A DNA stretch of 37,576 bases. It comes from Chloroflexota bacterium (GTDB lineage Bacteria > Chloroflexota > Dehalococcoidia > Lucifugimonadales > UBA3495). The stretch spans positions 34,011-71,586 of the forward strand of contig PBMF01000018.1 of NCBI GenBank assembly GCA_002721995.1. The letters run 5' to 3'. Below the pieces are notes generated by a model that made no database searches, was not told the DNA's origin, and was given only the letters and a program-made list of their open reading frames with translations. How positions within the stretch are numbered: the stretch's first letter is position 1; each line of letters begins with the position of its first letter. Both the position numbers and the translations under genes were made by a program. Positions 8,121 to 28,078 of this stretch are shown here, piece after piece.

Positions 8121-9911
8121 TTACTGAGGCTTGACGTATTCGAAGGCCACCGGCGTCCGGATTTCACTCCAGTCGGTCGGTTCCCAACCTTCGATGGACA
8201 GACGCTTGCCCACGGGCCAGACACTGTCATGGGTGTAAAGGGCGGAAGCCATTGCGTTGTCGAAGATCCAGTCATAGACCTTGACGTTCTTTTCCCACGC
8301 CTTTTCGGGGTCAACCTCGGTAGCCGCGTCGCCTACGTTCTCATCCAACCAGGGGTGGTGAGTACCGTAGCTGAAGGTCGACTTGGTCTGATAGTTGGAA
8401 GCACCAACGATGGGGGAGAGCCTCACGCCAACGGTGTGGCAGGTGGCGCCCTGGTACTTCCGGGTAATCAGCTCGGGACGCAGGGTGGCGTATGGGATGT
8501 TCTGGAATTTGACGTCGATTCCGATCTCTTCCCAGTACTGGGCGACGGCTTCACAGGCCTCGACCTCGGCAACCGCGCCGCGGATGGAGGGGGTCAGAGT
8601 GATGGTGAAACCATCGGGATAACCTGCCTCGGCCAGGAGCTGGCGGGCCTGGTCGGGATCGTAGTCATATACCCACTCGGGGTTGGCCCGGGCGCTATGA
8701 CCCATCCAGTCGCGGACACCCAAGGGGGCGCCGAAACCGGAGAGGAGTTCATCAACGATGGTCTGGCGGTCGATGGCCAGGTTCATGGCCTTCTTTACCT
8801 TGACAGCGTTGGCCCATTCCTCGGACTCGGTGTCCAGGTTGGAGGACACCCAGGCCAGGTCTGGGTTGTAGAACTCGTATTCGTTGCCGTCCTTGTCGAC
8901 GCCGTAGAGCTGGCCGTAGAGGTTCAGACCGGCCTGACCGGCGTTGGGGAAGCCAAGGACTTGCGCGCCTTCCACATCTTCCACGGTGGGCAGGGAGTCG
9001 AAGGCCATGTCAAAGCTGTCCAGCTGACCGGTCTGGAAGCCGGCCACGCGGGCAGATTCTTCGGGGATGGTCCAGTAGACCAGCTCGTCGAAGTAGGGGC
9101 TCTGGCGCCAGTGGTCTTCCACGGCGCTCATCCGCCAGAATTCGCCACTGGAATGCTCTTCGATCTGCCAGGGACCGGTGCCGGCGATGTCTTTGCTGGC
9201 AACTTCAATGCCAAGTTCTTCGGATTGAGCTTTGCTGACAACCCAGGAACTGGAGCCGCCGCCGTTGCGCATGAACTCGAAGACCTGGGCTGGGACCCAA
9301 GGCACGCCGGTGTTGACCGACATCGTCAGGTCGTCGATGATCTCAACCGAACCATCGGGATGGCCGCCAAAATAGTCGCCAATGATTCCGGAGCGAGCAT
9401 GTTTGGCGCCGGCATGCCATTGCTCGTAGGAGTAAAGGACGTCTTCGGCGGTCATTTCGCCGTAGCCTTTATGGAACTGGACGCCGTCTTGGAATTTCCA
9501 GGTCCAGACCAAGAAGTCATCGGAGACACTCCAAGATTCCGCCAACATGGGGCTGGCTGAGAAATCGGGAGCCGTGGTGATCAGACCCTCACCAACGGAG
9601 CTGCTAGTGAATTGAATCCTGGGGCTGGAACTCAGACCGGGATGACCTTCAAAGATTCCGGTCTCCTTTTGTCCCATGTGGATTGTCCCCGCGGGCTCGG
9701 ACATCATGGCATCCGTCGGGGCTTCGGTGGCCTCCGGCATGGCCGTCGGCGAGTCGGTGGAGTCGGCCGTCGGCGTGGGATCGGGACTGGTTGAGGCCAC
9801 GGGAGTAGCTGTGGCGGAGGAGCCGCAGGCCACTATCAGCGCCGCAACCATCAGGACCAACGCCTGAGGCAAGAAGCGGAAAATTGCTTTCCTGTTACCA
9901 GATTTGGGCAC
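8121..9911 (-). CDS. ABC transporter family 5 solute-binding lipoprotein, copy 1
   Basis: 596 aa extracytoplasmic substrate receptor of the SBP_bac_5 (peptide/nickel/opine) class. The lipoprotein signal ends in LIVAC with lipidated C29, followed by a Thr/Pro/Ala-rich linker (~30-70) and the binding domain (from about 74). Start GTG at 9911 has AGGAG 8 nt away. Two close paralogues follow upstream at 10299-12107 and 12478-14289. A variable stretch near 178-190 (FGGHPDGSVE) distinguishes it. No permease or ATPase gene is adjacent, so it must share components encoded elsewhere. It has its own TTGACA/TATAAA promoter and shares a terminator with the GNAT gene. Confidence 0.93.
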   Translation of the reverse strand: MPKSGNRKAIFRFLPQALVLMVAALIVACGSSATATPVASTSPDPTPTADSTDSPTAMPEATEAPTDAMMSEPAGTIHMGQKETGIFEGHPGLSSSPRIQFTSSSVGEGLITTAPDFSASPMLAESWSVSDDFLVWTWKFQDGVQFHKGYGEMTAEDVLYSYEQWHAGAKHARSGIIGDYFGGHPDGSVEIIDDLTMSVNTGVPWVPAQVFEFMRNGGGSSSWVVSKAQSEELGIEVASKDIAGTGPWQIEEHSSGEFWRMSAVEDHWRQSPYFDELVYWTIPEESARVAGFQTGQLDSFDMAFDSLPTVEDVEGAQVLGFPNAGQAGLNLYGQLYGVDKDGNEYEFYNPDLAWVSSNLDTESEEWANAVKVKKAMNLAIDRQTIVDELLSGFGAPLGVRDWMGHSARANPEWVYDYDPDQARQLLAEAGYPDGFTITLTPSIRGAVAEVEACEAVAQYWEEIGIDVKFQNIPYATLRPELITRKYQGATCHTVGVRLSPIVGASNYQTKSTFSYGTHHPWLDENVGDAATEVDPEKAWEKNVKVYDWIFDNAMASALYTHDSVWPVGKRLSIEGWEPTDWSEIRTPVAFEYVKPQ

Positions 9912-10298: not shown

Positions 10299-12107
10299 CT
10301 ATTTGGGCTTGGCATACTCGAAGGCGGACGCAGTCCGGACTTCGCTCCAGTCGAGGGGCGTCCAGTCGGGGTCCAAACGCGGCCCGATGGGCCAGATCCC
10401 GTCATGGACGTACAGCGACGAGGAGGTAGAGTTTTCCCAGATCCAGTCGTAGATCTTGCGCTCTCCTTCCTGGATCTTTACCGGGTCTACCTCGACAGAG
10501 GTGGCTCCGATGTTCTCTTCCATCCAGGGATGATGGGTCCCGTAGCTGAAGGTGGACTTGGTCTGGTAGTTGGAAGCGCCGATGATCGGCGACAGGCGGA
10601 CACCAACGGTGTGGCAGGTGGCGCCGTTGTACTTCCGGGTGATCAACTCAGGCCGGATGGTGGCGTAAGGCACGTGCTGGAGGCTTACATCCACGCCGAT
10701 GGCCTCCCAGTACTGGGCGACGGCTTCGCAGGCTTCCACCTCAGCGGGTGCGCCGCGGATGGACGGAGTGAGGGTGATGGAGAAACCATCGGGATAACCG
10801 GCGTCGGCCAGCATCTGCTTGGCCAGGTCCGGGTCGTACTCATATTCCCACTCGGGGTTGGCCCGGGCTTCGTGACCCATCCAGTCCCTGACGGACTGGG
10901 TCTTACCAAAGCCGGACAGCAGTGTGTCGACGATGGTCTGGCGGTCGATGGCGATATTCAGGGCTTTACGTACCGTGACAGCGTCGGCCCATGCCTGAGA
11001 ATCGGTATCGAGGTCCGAGGAGACCCAGGCGTTATCCGGGTTGTAGAACTCGTACTCGTTACCGTCTTTGTCCAGTCCGTAGAGCTGGCCGTAGAAGTTC
11101 AGGCCGGCCTGTCCGGCGTTAGGGAATCCGTTGACAGTTGCGCCTTCCACCGCTTCCACGGTGGCCAGGGAGTCGAAGGCCATGTCAAAGCTGTCCAATT
11201 GACCGGTCTGGAACCCAGCTACGCGGGCGGACTCTTCGGGAATGGTCCAGTAGACCAATTCGTCGAAGTAGGGGGTCTGCCGCCAGTGGTCTTCGACCTT
11301 GCTGAAGCGCCAGAACTCACCGCTGGCGTGCTCTTCGATCTGCCAGGGGCCGGTGGCGGCGATGTCTTTGCTGGCCGCTTCAACTCCGATCTTCTCGGAC
11401 TGGGCTTGGCTGACGACCCAAGAACTGGAACCGCCGCCGTTGCGCATGAACTCGAAGACCTGGGCAGGTACCCAGGGCAGACCGGTGTCGATGACCATGG
11501 TGTGATCGTCAACGATCTCCAGAGAAGCGCCTTCGCGTCCTCCGAAATCGCCGTCGATGCCGCCGAAGTATTCGCCCATGATTCCGGAGCGGGCGTGCAA
11601 AGCGCCGGCGTTCCACTGTTCATAGGAGTAGAGGACGTCGTTGGCGGTCATCTCTCCATAACCCTTGTGGAACTGGACGCCTTCCTGGAACTTCCAGGTC
11701 CAGGTCAGGAAGTCCTCAGAGACCTCCCAAGACTTTGCCAGCATGGGGCTGGCGGAGAAGTCGGTGGCTGTCGTGATCAGACCCTCACCGACGGAGGAGC
11801 TGGTGAACTGAATACGAGGGCTCGAGCTCATGCTCGGGTGGGCCTCGAAGATACCAGTCTCTTTCTGTCCCATGTGGATCGTCCCGGCGGGCTCCGCCGT
11901 CATGGCCTCAGTTGGGGCCACTGTGGCTTCCGGCATCGCCGTCGGCGATTCACTGGAACTGGCCGTCGGGGTCGGCTCGACGCTGGTCGAGGACACCGGG
12001 GTGGCCGTGGCAGAAGAACCGCAGGCGAATAGTAGCGCTACGAATAGCACGACAATCGCCTTGGATAGGTGCTTAAAAATGGGTAGCCTTGCTCTTGTTT
12101 GTCGCAC
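10299..12107 (-). CDS. ABC transporter family 5 solute-binding lipoprotein, copy 2
   Basis: 602 aa, clearly paralogous to its two neighbours along the whole length. Lipobox LLFAC, C29 lipidated; linker rich in Thr/Ser/Pro (~30-70); then TIHMGQKETGIFEAHPS, as in copy 1. The variable stretch GGIDGDFGGREGAS (~181-194) is the longest of the three. Blocks such as FMRNGGGSSSWVVS and NAGQAGLNFYGQLYG are nearly identical between copies. GTG start at 12107 with GAGGGA upstream. Own promoter and terminator; orphan receptor with no transporter genes nearby. Confidence 0.93.
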   Translation of the reverse strand: MRQTRARLPIFKHLSKAIVVLFVALLFACGSSATATPVSSTSVEPTPTASSSESPTAMPEATVAPTEAMTAEPAGTIHMGQKETGIFEAHPSMSSSPRIQFTSSSVGEGLITTATDFSASPMLAKSWEVSEDFLTWTWKFQEGVQFHKGYGEMTANDVLYSYEQWNAGALHARSGIMGEYFGGIDGDFGGREGASLEIVDDHTMVIDTGLPWVPAQVFEFMRNGGGSSSWVVSQAQSEKIGVEAASKDIAATGPWQIEEHASGEFWRFSKVEDHWRQTPYFDELVYWTIPEESARVAGFQTGQLDSFDMAFDSLATVEAVEGATVNGFPNAGQAGLNFYGQLYGLDKDGNEYEFYNPDNAWVSSDLDTDSQAWADAVTVRKALNIAIDRQTIVDTLLSGFGKTQSVRDWMGHEARANPEWEYEYDPDLAKQMLADAGYPDGFSITLTPSIRGAPAEVEACEAVAQYWEAIGVDVSLQHVPYATIRPELITRKYNGATCHTVGVRLSPIIGASNYQTKSTFSYGTHHPWMEENIGATSVEVDPVKIQEGERKIYDWIWENSTSSSLYVHDGIWPIGPRLDPDWTPLDWSEVRTASAFEYAKPK

Positions 12108-12477: not shown

Positions 12478-14289
12478 CTACCTATTAGGCTCTGCGTACT
12501 CGAAGGCGGTAGCCGTCCGGACTTCACTGTAGTCCGTGGGCTGCCAGCCAGCGACCAAACGCGGTCCCACCGGCCAGATGCCGTCGTGCGTGTAGAGGGA
12601 CGCGAATATCACGTTGTCGAATACCCAGTCGTAAATCTCGCGCTCTCCGGCCTGAATCTTTGCCGGGTCAGTCTGCAACTTGGTGTCGGTGACATGCTCT
12701 TCCAGCCACGGATGGTGTGTTCCATAACTGAAGGTTGACTTGGTCTGGTAGTTACCAGCGCCAATGATCGGAGTGAGCCTGATGCCGACGGTGTGGCAGG
12801 TGACTCCGTTGTACTTCCGGGTGATCAGCTCGGGGCGGATGGTTGCATAGGGAACGTGCTGCAACTTTACATCCACGCCGATGGCCTCCCAGTACTGGGC
12901 GACCGCTTCACAGGCTTCAACTTCACCGGGTGCTCCGCGAATGGCTGGAGTCAGGGTGATGGAGAAACCATCAGGATAGCCGGCGTCGGCCAGCATCTGC
13001 TTGGCCAGTTCCGGGTTGTATTCGTGGACCCAATCGGGGTTGGCCCTAGCGTCGTGGCCCATCCAGTCCCTCAGAGACTGGGGAGCGCCGAAACCAGAGA
13101 GGATGGTGTCTACGATGGTCTGACGGTCGATGGCGATGTTGAGCGCCTTACGAACGTCGCGAGCATCCTTCCAAGCCTGGGACTCGGTGTCCATATCAGA
13201 GGAGACCCACGCGTTGTCCGGGTTGTAGAACTCGTATTCGTTGCCGTCTTTGTCCAGGCCATAGAGTTGGCCGTAGAAGTTGAGTCCGGCCTGTCCGGCG
13301 TTGGGCCAGCCAACAACTGTGGCCCCTTCCACCGCTTCCACGGTTGCCAGGGAGTCGAAGGCCATGTCAAAGCTGTCCAGCTGACCGGTCTGGAAACCGG
13401 CGACGCGGGCAGCCTCTTCGGGGATGGTCCAATAGACCAGCTCGTCGAAGAGGGGGCTCTGCCGCCAGTGGTCTTCAACGGCACTGAACCGCCAGAACTC
13501 ACCGCTGGCGTGTTCTTCAATCTGCCAGGGGCCGGTGGCGGCGATGTCTTTACTGGCCGCTTCGGCGCCCAATTCATCAGACTGGGCCTTGCTGACGACC
13601 CACGTGCTGGAGCCGCCGCCGTTTCGCATGAATTCAAAAACGTCTTGTTGGACCCAAGGGGTACCGGTATTGACGACCATCGTGTAGTCGTCAACCACAG
13701 TTACCGATGCGCCCGGTCGGCCGGGGCCGCCCACGGAGAAGTACTCGCCAATGATTCCGGAGCGGGCATGGAGTGCGCCCTCATGCCACTGCTGATAGGA
13801 ATAAAGGACGTCTTCCGTGGTCATTTCGCCGTAACCCTTATGGAATTGCACGCCCTTCTGGAAGTTCCAGGTCCACTCCAGGAAATTTTCTGATATTTCC
13901 CACGAGGCGGCTAACATGGGGTTGGCGGAAAGGTCAGGGGCGGTTGTGATTAGACCTTCACCAACGGAGCTGCTGGTGAATTGGATCCGGGGGCTGGAGC
14001 TCATGCTGGGATGGGCTTCAAATATCCCGGTCTCCTTCTGACCCATGTTGATGGTTCCGGCCGGTTCAGCCATCGCCGGAGGGGCTTCGGTGGCTTCCAT
14101 AACTGCCGTTGGTACTGGGGTGGCCCCGGGGGCCGTTGTGGCCGGTACAGCAGTCGGCTCCACGCTAGTTGAAGGCACTGGGGTCGCGGTTGCGGAGGAA
14201 CCGCAAGCGAACAACAGCGCCACAAATAGCAGGACGATTGCCTTCGGCAGATGCTTGGATAATGAGAACTTTGGCCTTGGATTCGTCAC
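12478..14289 (-). CDS. ABC transporter family 5 solute-binding lipoprotein, copy 3
   Basis: 603 aa, third paralogue. Lipobox LLFAC with C29; Thr/Ala/Pro linker (~30-72); TINMGQKETGIFEAHPS begins the binding domain. The signal peptide is nearly the same as copy 2 (KAIV-LFVALLFAC), and the promoters of copies 2 and 3 are also most alike, so these two probably diverged last. The variable stretch reads FSVGGPGRPGAS (~181-192). GTG start at 14289 with AGGAGA. Role as for the others: binding of a peptide-like or other small solute outside the cell; ligand unknown. Confidence 0.93.
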   Translation of the reverse strand: MTNPRPKFSLSKHLPKAIVLLFVALLFACGSSATATPVPSTSVEPTAVPATTAPGATPVPTAVMEATEAPPAMAEPAGTINMGQKETGIFEAHPSMSSSPRIQFTSSSVGEGLITTAPDLSANPMLAASWEISENFLEWTWNFQKGVQFHKGYGEMTTEDVLYSYQQWHEGALHARSGIIGEYFSVGGPGRPGASVTVVDDYTMVVNTGTPWVQQDVFEFMRNGGGSSTWVVSKAQSDELGAEAASKDIAATGPWQIEEHASGEFWRFSAVEDHWRQSPLFDELVYWTIPEEAARVAGFQTGQLDSFDMAFDSLATVEAVEGATVVGWPNAGQAGLNFYGQLYGLDKDGNEYEFYNPDNAWVSSDMDTESQAWKDARDVRKALNIAIDRQTIVDTILSGFGAPQSLRDWMGHDARANPDWVHEYNPELAKQMLADAGYPDGFSITLTPAIRGAPGEVEACEAVAQYWEAIGVDVKLQHVPYATIRPELITRKYNGVTCHTVGIRLTPIIGAGNYQTKSTFSYGTHHPWLEEHVTDTKLQTDPAKIQAGEREIYDWVFDNVIFASLYTHDGIWPVGPRLVAGWQPTDYSEVRTATAFEYAEPNR

Positions 14290-16927: not shown

Positions 16928-17031
16928 ACGGGCGTCCGCGGCTGCTGCAACGGATGGCTAACGGCTCGCGGCTTGTACTTAGGCGGGTAGCTGATAGCCT
17001 GAGGCTAAGGAACATGTGTCAGGAGGCCCCG

Positions 17032-17484
17032 ATGGCGAAGGTATTGGTTGTAGAGGATGAAGACGATATCAGACAGTTACTGACCGAAGACCTGGAGGGC
17101 AGAGGGCATCGGGTCCGGGGAGCCGGTAACGGTGTCATCGCCATCCAACAGGTCAAGCAACGGATACCGGACATCATCTTTGGTGACATCATGATGCCGA
17201 TCATGGACGGGTTCGATCTTATCTTGAAACTCAGGGAAAACCCCGAGACCGCCGCCATCCCCATGGTGTTGGTCACCGCCATGAACGCCAGGGACGCCGA
17301 GGGCAAGGCCCGGGAGTTGGGTGTGGAGCATTTCCTGCCCAAACCCTGGGAGCCGTGGTCCCTGGACTTTGTGCTGGACCAGATACTGAATCCCAAGAGC
17401 ACCGCCCGAAAGGGCGACGGCAAGCTGCAGGTCTATCCCCAGCGGGTGCCCGAGGGCTCCACCAACTACCCCAGCGCCGCCTGA
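17032..17484 (+). CDS. Single-domain response regulator (CheY-like receiver)
   Basis: 150 aa: a receiver domain (1-~122) and a tail of about 28 residues rich in Lys/Pro/Ser without a DNA-binding domain. Acidic pocket E9-D10, phosphoacceptor D52 in GDIMMPIMDG, T82 and K104 (LPKPW) are all present, so phosphorylation should work. ATG at 17032 is chosen over upstream starts because AGGAGG stands 5 nt before it. No kinase gene is adjacent, so its partner is elsewhere. The output is probably protein-protein interaction. Confidence 0.9.
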   Translation: MAKVLVVEDEDDIRQLLTEDLEGRGHRVRGAGNGVIAIQQVKQRIPDIIFGDIMMPIMDGFDLILKLRENPETAAIPMVLVTAMNARDAEGKARELGVEHFLPKPWEPWSLDFVLDQILNPKSTARKGDGKLQVYPQRVPEGSTNYPSAA

Positions 17485-17640: not shown

Positions 17641-18210
17641 ATGGATCGAGTATCGGGAGAGTCGCCACGTCGAGCCACGGGTTCCATGAGTCACGTCATT
17701 GTGGTTGTTGTGATTACCGCGGCCCTATCCTTCCTGCTGGCATGCGGCGGTCCGAGCCAGGACACAGCTCCGGACTTTTCCCTGCCCGATTCCCGAGGTG
17801 GAGAAGTGGTTCTTGCCCAGTTGGTGCAAGAACACCGGTCAGTGGTCATCGTCTTCTACAGAGGGTTCTTTTGAGGCATATGCCGAGGCCAACTGGACGA
17901 GTTGGCAGATGCTTATCCCCAGTTCCGCGAATTGGGCACCGAGATCGTGGCCATCAGCACGGACGATGTAACTGACGCCAAACAGATGGCCTCGCTGGTG
18001 AACGCTCCCTTCCCGGTGCTGGCGGACCCCAGTTCCGAGACAGCTCTCGCATATGAGGTTTTTGACCTGTTGGATGACGGCGTGGCAGCTCCGGCGGTTT
18101 TCATAGTTGATGGCGACCAGGTTGTCCAATGGAAACAGATCGGCCAGGACATCGCCGACCGGCCAAGCCTCGGCGAGTTGCTCAGTGTGGTCCAAGGCCA
18201 GGGCAACTAG
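17641..18210 (+). CDS. Selenocysteine-containing peroxiredoxin-like lipoprotein (UGA read-through)
   Basis: 189 codons with one in-frame TGA at 17872-17874 (codon 78). Upstream: signal peptide ending SFLLAC, a perfect lipobox, then the AhpC/TSA start APDFSLPDSRGGEVVLAQL and VVIVFYRGFF. Downstream, in the same frame: GICRGQLDELADAYPQF and the rest of the thioredoxin fold (STDDVTDAKQ, FPVLADPSSETA, PAVFIVDGD). The TGA is exactly where AhpC/TSA proteins of the YRGxxCxxC type have the peroxidatic Cys, giving UxxC, and a SECIS-like hairpin follows. Start at 17641, or ATG 17686 which gives a shorter signal peptide. Probably an outer-face membrane-bound peroxidase. A nonsense mutation or base error is the alternative. 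Confidence 0.85.
17872..17912 (+). promoter_or_regulatory. UGA codon and candidate bacterial SECIS hairpin
   Basis: After the TGA (17872-17874), GCCAACT (17888-17894) and AGTTGGC (17900-17906) form a perfect 7-bp stem with apical loop GGACG. The loop begins 21 nt after the UGA and starts with GG, fitting the published bacterial SECIS pattern (loop 16-37 nt away, a G in the first two loop positions). GCAT/ATGC (17876-17879 with 17909-17912) can extend the base. It lies within the coding sequence, as bacterial SECIS elements do. Confidence 0.75.
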
Positions 18211-18237: not shown

Positions 18238-19665
18238 TCAGCTAACCGCCGTCCGGGGCCGGTACTGCAGAGCCTCGGCCAGGTGGGCGACGTCTATACC
18301 CTCGGAACCTTCCAGGTCGGCCACGGTCCGCGATACCTTGAGGATGCGGTGGAAGGCCCGGGCCGAGAGGTTCAGTCGCTGGGTAGCCGTTTGCAGGAGT
18401 CCCCTGGCACCGTCGTCCAGCTTGCAGAACTTCCAGACCTCGGCGGGCCCCATCTCCGAGTTGCAGAAGAACCCGCACTCCTTGAACCGCTCCCGCTGCA
18501 CTTCCCTGGCCTCTTTCACCCGCAGCCTGGGCTTGCTGGACTCCTCGGCTTGCTGGTCCTCCACCAGCTTTTCGTACTCCACCGGCGGCACTTCCACGAA
18601 AACGTCCACCCGGTCCAACAGCGGCCCGCTGATCCGTTTTTGGTAACGGGCCACGGTGGACGGTGAGCAGGAACATTCCTTGCTTGGGTGGGTGTGGAAA
18701 CCGCAGGGGCAGTGGTTCATGGCTGCCACCGGCATGAAACTGGCCGGGTAGGTGACGCTCCCCGACACACGGCTGATGGTCACCACCTTGTCTTCCAAGG
18801 GTTGGCGCAACGACTCCAGGGCCGTGTGGTTGAATTCGGGCAGCTCGTCCAAGAACAACACACCACGGTGGCTCATGGTGATCTCCCCCGGCCGAAGTGT
18901 TCGGCCGCCGCCCACCAGTCCGGCGTTGGAGATGGTGTAGTGGGGCGAACGGAAGAGACGCTGGAGGACCAGTGGGTTCTCGGCGGACAGCACCCCGTTC
19001 ACGCTGTAGATCTTGGTCACTTCCAACGCTTCCTGTTGGGCCATGCTGGCCCGTTTGGCGTGCTCCTGGCCCCGGACGTTGGCCAGGTCCATCTCGTAAA
19101 CGCCGGCCGTGTCATAGATGGACTGCCAGCCGTCCTCGGCCAGGGGAGTGATCTCCCTTTCGCAGCGTAGATGGTTAATTAGGTGCTTGAGGCTGGCCAC
19201 CGGGTAGACTTGGATGTCTTCCACCAAAGAGGCTTCGTCGGCATCCACCGAGGGTACGAAGACCGAGGTGTAGCCCTGGTCCCGGGCGACTGAGGCCATG
19301 GCTAGGATTCCGGTGGTGTGGCGCAGGCTTCCGTCCAGGGAGAGTTCTCCCAGGAAAACGGCGCCCTCGGGCAGCGAGTCTATCTGCCCGGAACTGAGCA
19401 GCATGCAGACGGCGATGGGCAGGTCGTAGGACGGGCCCTCCTTCTTGAGGTCGGCGGGGGCCAGGTTCACCGTGATGCGCCGCAGAGGGAATTCGCAGTT
19501 GCTGTTGCGGAGGGCAGCGCGCACTCTTTCTTTGACTTCTTGGACCGCGGCGTCGGGAAGGCCGACGATGTTGAATGCGGGGAGTCCGGGGGAGATCTCC
19601 ACTTCGACCTGGACCACAAATCCGTCCAGACCGATGACCGCGCAGGTCTGAGTGTTGGCTAGCAC
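18238..19665 (-). CDS. YifB/ComM-family Mg-chelatase-like protein lacking the Walker A segment
   Basis: 475 aa against about 500-510 normally. The N-terminal Lon-like fold (1-~170) is intact (ISPGLPAFNIVGLPDAAV, 24-41). Next, RGQEHAKRA (198-206) runs straight into SMAQQEALEVTKIYSV: about 34 residues, including the GPPGxGKT P-loop that belongs between them, are absent, with the frame kept. Walker B GVLFLDE (268-274), zinc cysteines C319/C321/C331/C333, DRVD (351-354) and the C-terminal region remain. ComM is a hexameric helicase in DNA branch migration during transformation; without Walker A, ATP use seems impossible. GTG start at 19665 with GGAG. True deletion versus assembly collapse is open. 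Confidence 0.88.
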   Translation of the reverse strand: MLANTQTCAVIGLDGFVVQVEVEISPGLPAFNIVGLPDAAVQEVKERVRAALRNSNCEFPLRRITVNLAPADLKKEGPSYDLPIAVCMLLSSGQIDSLPEGAVFLGELSLDGSLRHTTGILAMASVARDQGYTSVFVPSVDADEASLVEDIQVYPVASLKHLINHLRCEREITPLAEDGWQSIYDTAGVYEMDLANVRGQEHAKRASMAQQEALEVTKIYSVNGVLSAENPLVLQRLFRSPHYTISNAGLVGGGRTLRPGEITMSHRGVLFLDELPEFNHTALESLRQPLEDKVVTISRVSGSVTYPASFMPVAAMNHCPCGFHTHPSKECSCSPSTVARYQKRISGPLLDRVDVFVEVPPVEYEKLVEDQQAEESSKPRLRVKEAREVQRERFKECGFFCNSEMGPAEVWKFCKLDDGARGLLQTATQRLNLSARAFHRILKVSRTVADLEGSEGIDVAHLAEALQYRPRTAVS

Positions 19666-27694: not shown

Positions 27695-28078
27695 ATGAGC
27701 AGCGAATTTTCCCGAGATGACCGTATAGTCCTGGAGGGCATGCGCTTCTACGGGTTCCACGGTGTTAACCCCGAAGAACGTGTGCTGGGCCAGGAGTACG
27801 TGGTGGACCTCACGGTTGAGATGGACCTGGGCCCTGCTGGAGAGTCGGACCGGCTGGAGGACACCGTCAGCTACGCCCACATCTACCGTGCCGTGAAGGA
27901 CGTGATGGAGGGCGAACCCAAGAACCTGCTGGAGGCCGCGGCCCAGGCCGTAGCCGACCGGGTTTTGGCCGAGTTCTCGGTGGACTCGGTTGGGGTGCGG
28001 GTCAAGAAGCCCCACCCACCCATACGAGGTTCGGTCATCGAAAACGCCACGGTGGAGATTTACCGCAACCGCGGCTAG
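27695..28078 (+). CDS. folB: Dihydroneopterin aldolase
   Basis: 127 aa. Folate pathway enzyme cleaving 7,8-dihydroneopterin to hydroxymethyl-dihydropterin. Conserved LEGMRFYGFHGVNPEER (13-29) with the catalytic Glu region, LEDTVSYAHIY, LLEAAAQAVADRVL and KKPHPPIRG with catalytic Lys. Slight N-terminal extension MSSEFSRDD. 11 nt after the lyase gene, so likely co-transcribed. No other folate gene is in the window, apart from a pterin dehydratase at 31736. Confidence 0.94.
   Translation: MSSEFSRDDRIVLEGMRFYGFHGVNPEERVLGQEYVVDLTVEMDLGPAGESDRLEDTVSYAHIYRAVKDVMEGEPKNLLEAAAQAVADRVLAEFSVDSVGVRVKKPHPPIRGSVIENATVEIYRNRG

Follow-up and report, generated by a model that had tools for sequence, protein, structure and literature searches.

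A predicted Prx-like UxxC selenoprotein with a lipoprotein-type anchor in a SAR202-type Chloroflexota genome

Does the single in-frame TGA found in an AhpC/TSA-type gene of a Chloroflexota bacterium stand for selenocysteine (Sec) and, if so, what kind of enzyme does the gene encode? The window, meaning the whole stretch of 37,576 nucleotides analysed here, belongs to contig C18 of genome G000, an assembly of 2.57 Mb in 50 contigs that is 88% complete. An earlier note made from the sequence alone had proposed a selenocysteine at the peroxidatic position of a membrane-anchored peroxiredoxin. The selenocysteine, the intact gene and the lipoprotein-type anchor of that proposal stood up to the analysis, the peroxidatic position and the name peroxiredoxin did not.

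The in-frame UGA and its conservation

Direct translation of positions 17641-18207 of the forward strand, with the TGA read as U, gives one protein of 189 aa with a single internal TGA at 17872..17874, the codon of Sec78, with which a UxxC motif begins. The start codon is at 17641 or 17686, the stop codon TAG is at 18208-18210 and the complete selenoprotein gene covers 17641..18210 (forward strand). The sequence around codon 78, FYRGFF-U-GICRGQL, lies within a Pfam AhpC-TSA match of 124 residues (residues 41-164, E 6.2e-29) that is unbroken across the TGA and that, with 100.9 bits against a gathering score of 26, places the protein in PF00578. Translation and continuous match confirm the coordinates, the in-frame TGA and the motif given in the earlier note.

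We searched 147 relatives and found a homolog in 50 genomes, nearly all with exactly one internal TGA, and the best 30 loci of this search all had TGA at the equivalent of codon 78. When 84,980 species genomes were scanned, 64 loci came up; of the 63 that were readable, 61 had TGA (51 UxxC, 9 UxxD and 1 UxxE), one TGT and one AGT. When both searches were pooled, 75 of 77 distinct sequences from Chloroflexota, Gemmatimonadota and Latescibacterota carried TGA at the Sec codon, and because the same codon is TGA in so many homologous loci its presence at codon 78 is not due to chance. A phylum-wide sample yielded 32 strong matches, with one in-frame TGA in 30, a count that includes L159 (genome G419), whose Sec-site codon is TGC and whose TGA is probably the terminal stop. 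TGC (Cys) was present at the Sec codon in four further homologs, namely L156, L157 and L159, which belong to the 32 phylum-wide loci, and L145, which is separate from them. The motif FF-U-GIC, with U or Cys at the site in homologs, is thus of the UxxC type. Both the comparison of the codon in related genomes and the alignment with Cys homologs, which the earlier note had suggested as checks, came out in favour of Sec. Judging from these counts, the branch seems to retain selenium in place of sulfur in nearly all the relatives found.

The earlier note had also described the sequence around the TGA as undegraded. Downstream of the UGA, 37 close pairs gave a median dN/dS of 0.18, indicating purifying selection, and the gene does appear intact. 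A nonsense mutation, a sequencing error or a pseudogene, for which nothing speaks besides the TGA itself, has to face this selection, the recurrence of the TGA across independent assemblies and the covarying SECIS hairpin described below; we consider it extremely improbable, and a TGA conserved from species to species refutes it in practice. For a genome-wide use of TGA as a sense codon (Trp or Gly) no support was found. Of the 77 homologs 27 end with TGA, as do 4 of 15 Pfam-supported genes of the window, and where close homologs lack the internal TGA the residue is Cys and neither Trp nor Gly. The probability of a sense codon is practically nil, being refuted in practice by the use of TGA as a terminator.

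The SECIS hairpin and the selenocysteine machinery

A hairpin with the form of a bacterial SECIS, identified by its fold and covariation, is located at 17888..17906 of the forward strand (GCCAACT-GGACG-AGTTGGC). It has 7 bp and a 5-nt loop starting with GG, which lies 20 nt past the UGA, and it folds with -9.8 kcal/mol. Published rules for bSECIS elements ask for a loop of 3-9 nt, 4-16 bp, a G in loop positions 1-2, a spacing of 16-37 nt and an energy of at most -7.5 (PMC13188914), and the window hairpin complies with them. The structural rules also hold in 74 of the 75 Sec homologs, with a loop spacing of 20-21 nt in 70, and a hairpin of at least 6 bp was found in 72 of these 75 vs 157 of 741 control windows taken from these genes. 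Folded alone, the 50-nt region gave a modest z-score of -1.58.

The hairpin codes for QL[V/G/D]EL, and two synonymous sites in it covary, namely position 3 of the Gln codon and position 1 of the distal Leu codon: CAA-TTG was found 40 times, CAG-CTG 26, CAG-TTG (a G-U pair) 3 and CAA-CTG once (Fisher 8e-15, a value uncorrected for the kinship of the sequences). In genes with a GC3 of at least 0.6 alone the respective counts were 27, 25, 2 and 0, and the control with other Leu codons in the same genes gave an odds ratio of merely 2.06. Furthermore, the proximal Leu codon tracks the E/Q codon (CTC-GAG 44, CTG-CAG 5). Codon bias alone cannot account for this covariation.

The genome itself contains selA (562.6 bits), selB (343.3 bits) and selD (371.5 bits), all above the curated cut-offs. 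The selD gene (G000:C48:12067-12984; L015:1483-2529) has an in-frame TGA (...SHCAGUAAK) at the usual Sec site, and the UxxK site of SelD is listed as Sec (PMC13188914); by its sequence, SelD of this genome is itself a selenoprotein. The tRNA-Sec family model retrieved ordinary tRNAs above or near the cut-off plus one match of 40.6 bits, which corresponds to the 3' 69 nt of a tRNA-Sec, from the anticodon arm to GCCA, fused to unrelated sequence (G000:C12:127-195, loci L077/L151, 69/69 identical to the gene of G001). Two other 3' fragments of this gene are located at G000:C8:56706-56754 (46/49 identical, locus L148) and, on the reverse strand, at about 27842-27858 of G000:C12 (17/17 identical, locus L149). 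All three fragments start in the anticodon arm and lack the 5' half. They resemble integration scars at selC, and no integrase gene was recognised among the few ORFs inspected beside them.

An intact tRNA-Sec was not found in the 88%-complete assembly by covariance model, ARAGORN or BLAST, and Rfam and tRNA scans of the window gave no matches. Intact genes were present in 19 of the 20 relatives searched, including G001, G006 and G007 of the same genus, and those put through ARAGORN were called tRNA-SeC with anticodon tca. Because intact genes occur in same-genus relatives, the one of this species probably lies in the portion that the assembly does not cover. The machinery that the earlier note proposed to look for was therefore recovered as far as selA, selB and selD are concerned, and selC only as 3' fragments. 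Across the relatives selA is present in 124 of 147 and, being so widespread, makes its co-occurrence with Sec homologs a weak test. Five genomes (G009, G116, G140, G090 and G084) are without selA, yet have selB, and incompleteness is the more likely reason; G090 has a Cys copy and G084 a Thr copy, for which we claim no link to a loss of the Sec trait.

The presence of Sec at this TGA is thus supported by the machinery, the conservation of the TGA, the Sec/Cys pairs and the hairpin. Because the codon is conserved and under selection, the SECIS covaries and selA, selB and a Sec-containing selD are present, the UGA at 17872-17874 is almost certainly read as selenocysteine.

Active site on a peroxiredoxin scaffold

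The closest solved sequence is AhpE of M. tuberculosis (Rv2238c, E about 2e-13), a protein with a Cys nucleophile that is not known to have a signal peptide. Its stretch FFPLAFTGICQGEL and FYRGFFUGICRGQL form a gapless alignment, so that Sec78 corresponds to the Thr of PxxxTxxC and Cys81 (17881..17883, forward strand) to the peroxidatic Cys of FTGIC, which is unchanged. Because the peroxidatic Cys of AhpE aligns with Cys81, Sec78 is not at the peroxidatic position, where the earlier note had put it. Nor is the classical active site PxxxTxxC/TxxU present: in RGFFUGIC the Pro is replaced by Arg75 and the Thr by Sec78, and the active-site Arg116 of AhpE is replaced by Pro151 (18091..18093, forward strand), at the cis-Pro position that is Arg in peroxiredoxins. 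This Pro (alignment column P117) is invariant in 60 aligned family members. With the Pro, Thr and Arg of the active site absent, the label peroxiredoxin had to be dropped as well. A selenoperoxiredoxin of the classical kind, in which Sec takes the peroxidatic position, would agree with the AhpC-TSA domain and with a Sec within the active-site turn, but it is the Cys81 that occupies this position, the three residues are missing and the known selenoprotein peroxiredoxins are TxxU (PMC13188914). We regard this reading, rejected by the AhpE alignment, as very unlikely.

The fold, as predicted by AF2 (pLDDT 96.8), is that of peroxiredoxins. The best structural match of the model was Bcp4 (Z 24.4) and the second AhpE (Z 23.5, 28% identity), with ~150 residues aligned; no glutathione peroxidase chain appeared among the best 50 structural matches listed, from which no exclusion follows. 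In the thioredoxin-fold atlas, the position of the CxxC turn that peroxiredoxins use is the C-terminal one (TxxC), with Arg replacing the cis-Pro, and for glutathione peroxidases it is the N-terminal one (PMC2757866). Sec78 would then be found one helical turn from the classical Prx catalytic position, at the nucleophile position of thioredoxin and glutathione peroxidase (GPx), and the alignment and the model together suggest a peroxiredoxin scaffold combined with a thioredoxin/GPx-type nucleophile position.

One clade of the tree, from Anaerolineae, well supported and nested among UxxC members, has Asp or Glu in place of Cys81 and keeps the Sec, with the motif UGPD or UQPE (L102, L107, L108, L116, L117, L133, L136, L138, L142 and L144). 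All its members except L144 have a Cys two residues before the Sec (RCGU/KCGU). Because this clade has lost Cys81 yet keeps Sec, it is the Sec, and not Cys81, that appears indispensable.

Similar proteins have been catalogued before. The Prx-like UxxC selenoproteins of three studies (PMC2398784, PMC13188914, PMC1088965) share with the window protein the PF00578 domain, the Sec as first residue of UxxC and the SECIS just downstream. They were named 'Prx-like 1' in the GOS survey, which counted 225 Sec vs 2,740 Cys homologs (PMC2398784), 'Prx-like' in the Sargasso Sea survey (PMC1088965) and 'Prx-like thiol:disulfide oxidoreductase', with PF00578 and UxxC/UxxU (PMC13188914). The branch of the window differs from them by its signal peptide and lipobox, its motif FYRGxFUGxCRxQL and the presence of Sec in nearly all members. 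The selenoperoxiredoxin TxxU/PrxU (NF040737) belongs to the same superfamily, but there the Sec comes last in the motif (TxxU vs UxxC) and the window protein scores 51.8 bits with a model whose cut-off is 270. The best NCBIfam match was the SelL-related redox protein (NF040769), with 57 bits under a cut-off of 120, and none of the NCBIfam models, including the selenoprotein ones, reaches its cut-off on the window protein. Glutathione peroxidase (UxxT) is alike in that its Sec occupies the N-terminal position in this active-site turn, but it belongs to another Pfam family, which the Pfam search of the window protein did not match, and has Thr at +3 where the window protein has Cys. On sequence grounds, we assign the window protein to the Prx-like UxxC selenoproteins, an established and computationally predicted category, and not to the classical TxxU peroxiredoxins. 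The new points would be the lipoprotein-type anchor, the dominance of Sec and the UxxD clade, although earlier marine surveys may already include the branch. Our literature searches found no paper describing this exact Chloroflexota branch, and none on SAR202 and selenoproteins.

Probable membrane anchor, gene neighbours and proposed role

Direct reading of the N-terminus, MDRVSGESPRRATGSMSHVIVVVVITAALSFLLAC-GG, reveals a lipoprotein-type signal peptide (17641..17742, forward strand) with RR in the n-region, the h-region VIVVVVITAALSF and the lipobox-like LLAC, and a putative lipidated Cys35 at 17743-17745. The stretch VVVVITAALSFLLAC has the lipobox Cys of a bacterial lipoprotein under a relaxed rule, with Leu at -2; the lipobox called perfect in the earlier note is thus present in this looser form. 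The lipobox rule was passed by 43 of the 77 homologs and another N-terminal hydrophobic segment was found in 23 more. The lipobox and the N-terminal anchors in most homologs support the outward-facing, lipoprotein-type anchor that had been proposed, and the protein is predicted to be attached to the membrane on its extracytoplasmic side.

The neighbours in the window, a response regulator (16954-17484, forward strand), a YifB/ComM-type Mg-chelatase (18238-19665, reverse strand) and three consecutive paralogous genes for family-5 solute-binding proteins (8121-9911, 10299-12107 and 12478-14289, reverse strand), give no functional hint. In several near relatives the selenoprotein gene is directly beside, and on the same strand as, a CopC-CopD-cytochrome c fusion (L084 and L097) or a cytochrome c gene (L094), which supports an extracytoplasmic redox role and is also compatible with a Sco/TlpA-like reductase. 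Same-strand adjacency of this kind was seen as well in L021, L024-L026, L082 and L085.

Loci from the order to which the species of the window belongs match SAR202/Dehalococcoidia records, and on this ground we place the species close to SAR202-type MAGs. Those relatives that have a name belong to Dehalococcoidia/SAR202 and Anaerolineae. Copies from Gemmatimonadota and Latescibacterota are nested in the tree, which points to some horizontal transfer or to binning errors. Near-identical copies from MAGs of these two phyla were observed within the Chloroflexota tree at L089, L093, L101, L104, L106 and L132. The window copy has a patchy distribution, because the paralogs in genomes of the same genus are all more distant (about 37% identity). 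Two or three Sec paralogs are present in several relatives (L150 in G001:C40, G071, G023, G033 and G052), in tandem in G001, G023, G033 and G071, and the genome of the window has a second, divergent one with a lipobox (YEGLY-U-VFCRQQLVEL, G000:C13:114277-114762, L147).

With good confidence we propose a Sec-based, membrane-anchored, extracytoplasmic redox enzyme of the Prx-like UxxC type with an AhpE-like fold. The signal peptide would export the protein, and the lipidated Cys35 would fix it on the outer side of the cytoplasmic membrane. There the selenolate of Sec78 would be the attacking nucleophile, like the residue that thioredoxin and glutathione peroxidase have at this position. Most likely, Sec78 would reduce a hydroperoxide and become a selenenic acid; this would form a Se-S bond with Cys81, the proposed resolving Cys, and an extracytoplasmic thiol partner would reduce the bond. 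The substrate is the weakest step of the proposal, a peroxide being only slightly favoured over a protein disulfide. A selenoperoxidase activity is plausible, and the thioredoxin-like Pro151 together with the loss of the Prx Pro/Thr/Arg set weakens the peroxidase reading.

Alternatively, the same selenoprotein could be a ResA/TlpA/Sco-like thiol-disulfide reductase by which protein thiols or copper sites outside the cytoplasm are kept reduced, for example in cytochrome oxidase assembly. The combination of UxxC and a cis-Pro position occupied by Pro resembles thioredoxin (PMC2757866), near relatives have the gene in an operon-like arrangement beside CopC-CopD-cytochrome c and the class was catalogued as a thiol:disulfide oxidoreductase (PMC13188914), but the overall fold is AhpE/Bcp-like and the Anaerolineae clade keeps its Sec without the second Cys, a loss that a dithiol reductase would not tolerate unless the CxU Cys substitutes for it. 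We hold such a reductase to be a serious possibility, if somewhat doubtful.

Returning to the redox enzyme proposed above, a wider picture can be drawn only tentatively, and as a whole we think it rather unlikely: a Chloroflexota-centred extracytoplasmic Prx-like family in which Sec would be ancestral and near-obligatory, at the glutathione-peroxidase position on a peroxiredoxin scaffold, in which one clade would have exchanged the partner Cys for Asp and gained the CxU Cys, and which would serve copper/cytochrome c electron transfer at the SAR202-type cell surface. In standard annotation such genes are cut short or split at the UGA, and the protein would then be missed or called a fragment. 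SAR202-type Chloroflexota thus place selenium in a predicted outward-facing redox enzyme, and a Sec-dominated family with natural UxxC, UxxD and CxxC versions would be a good test system for the abilities of Sec vs Cys.
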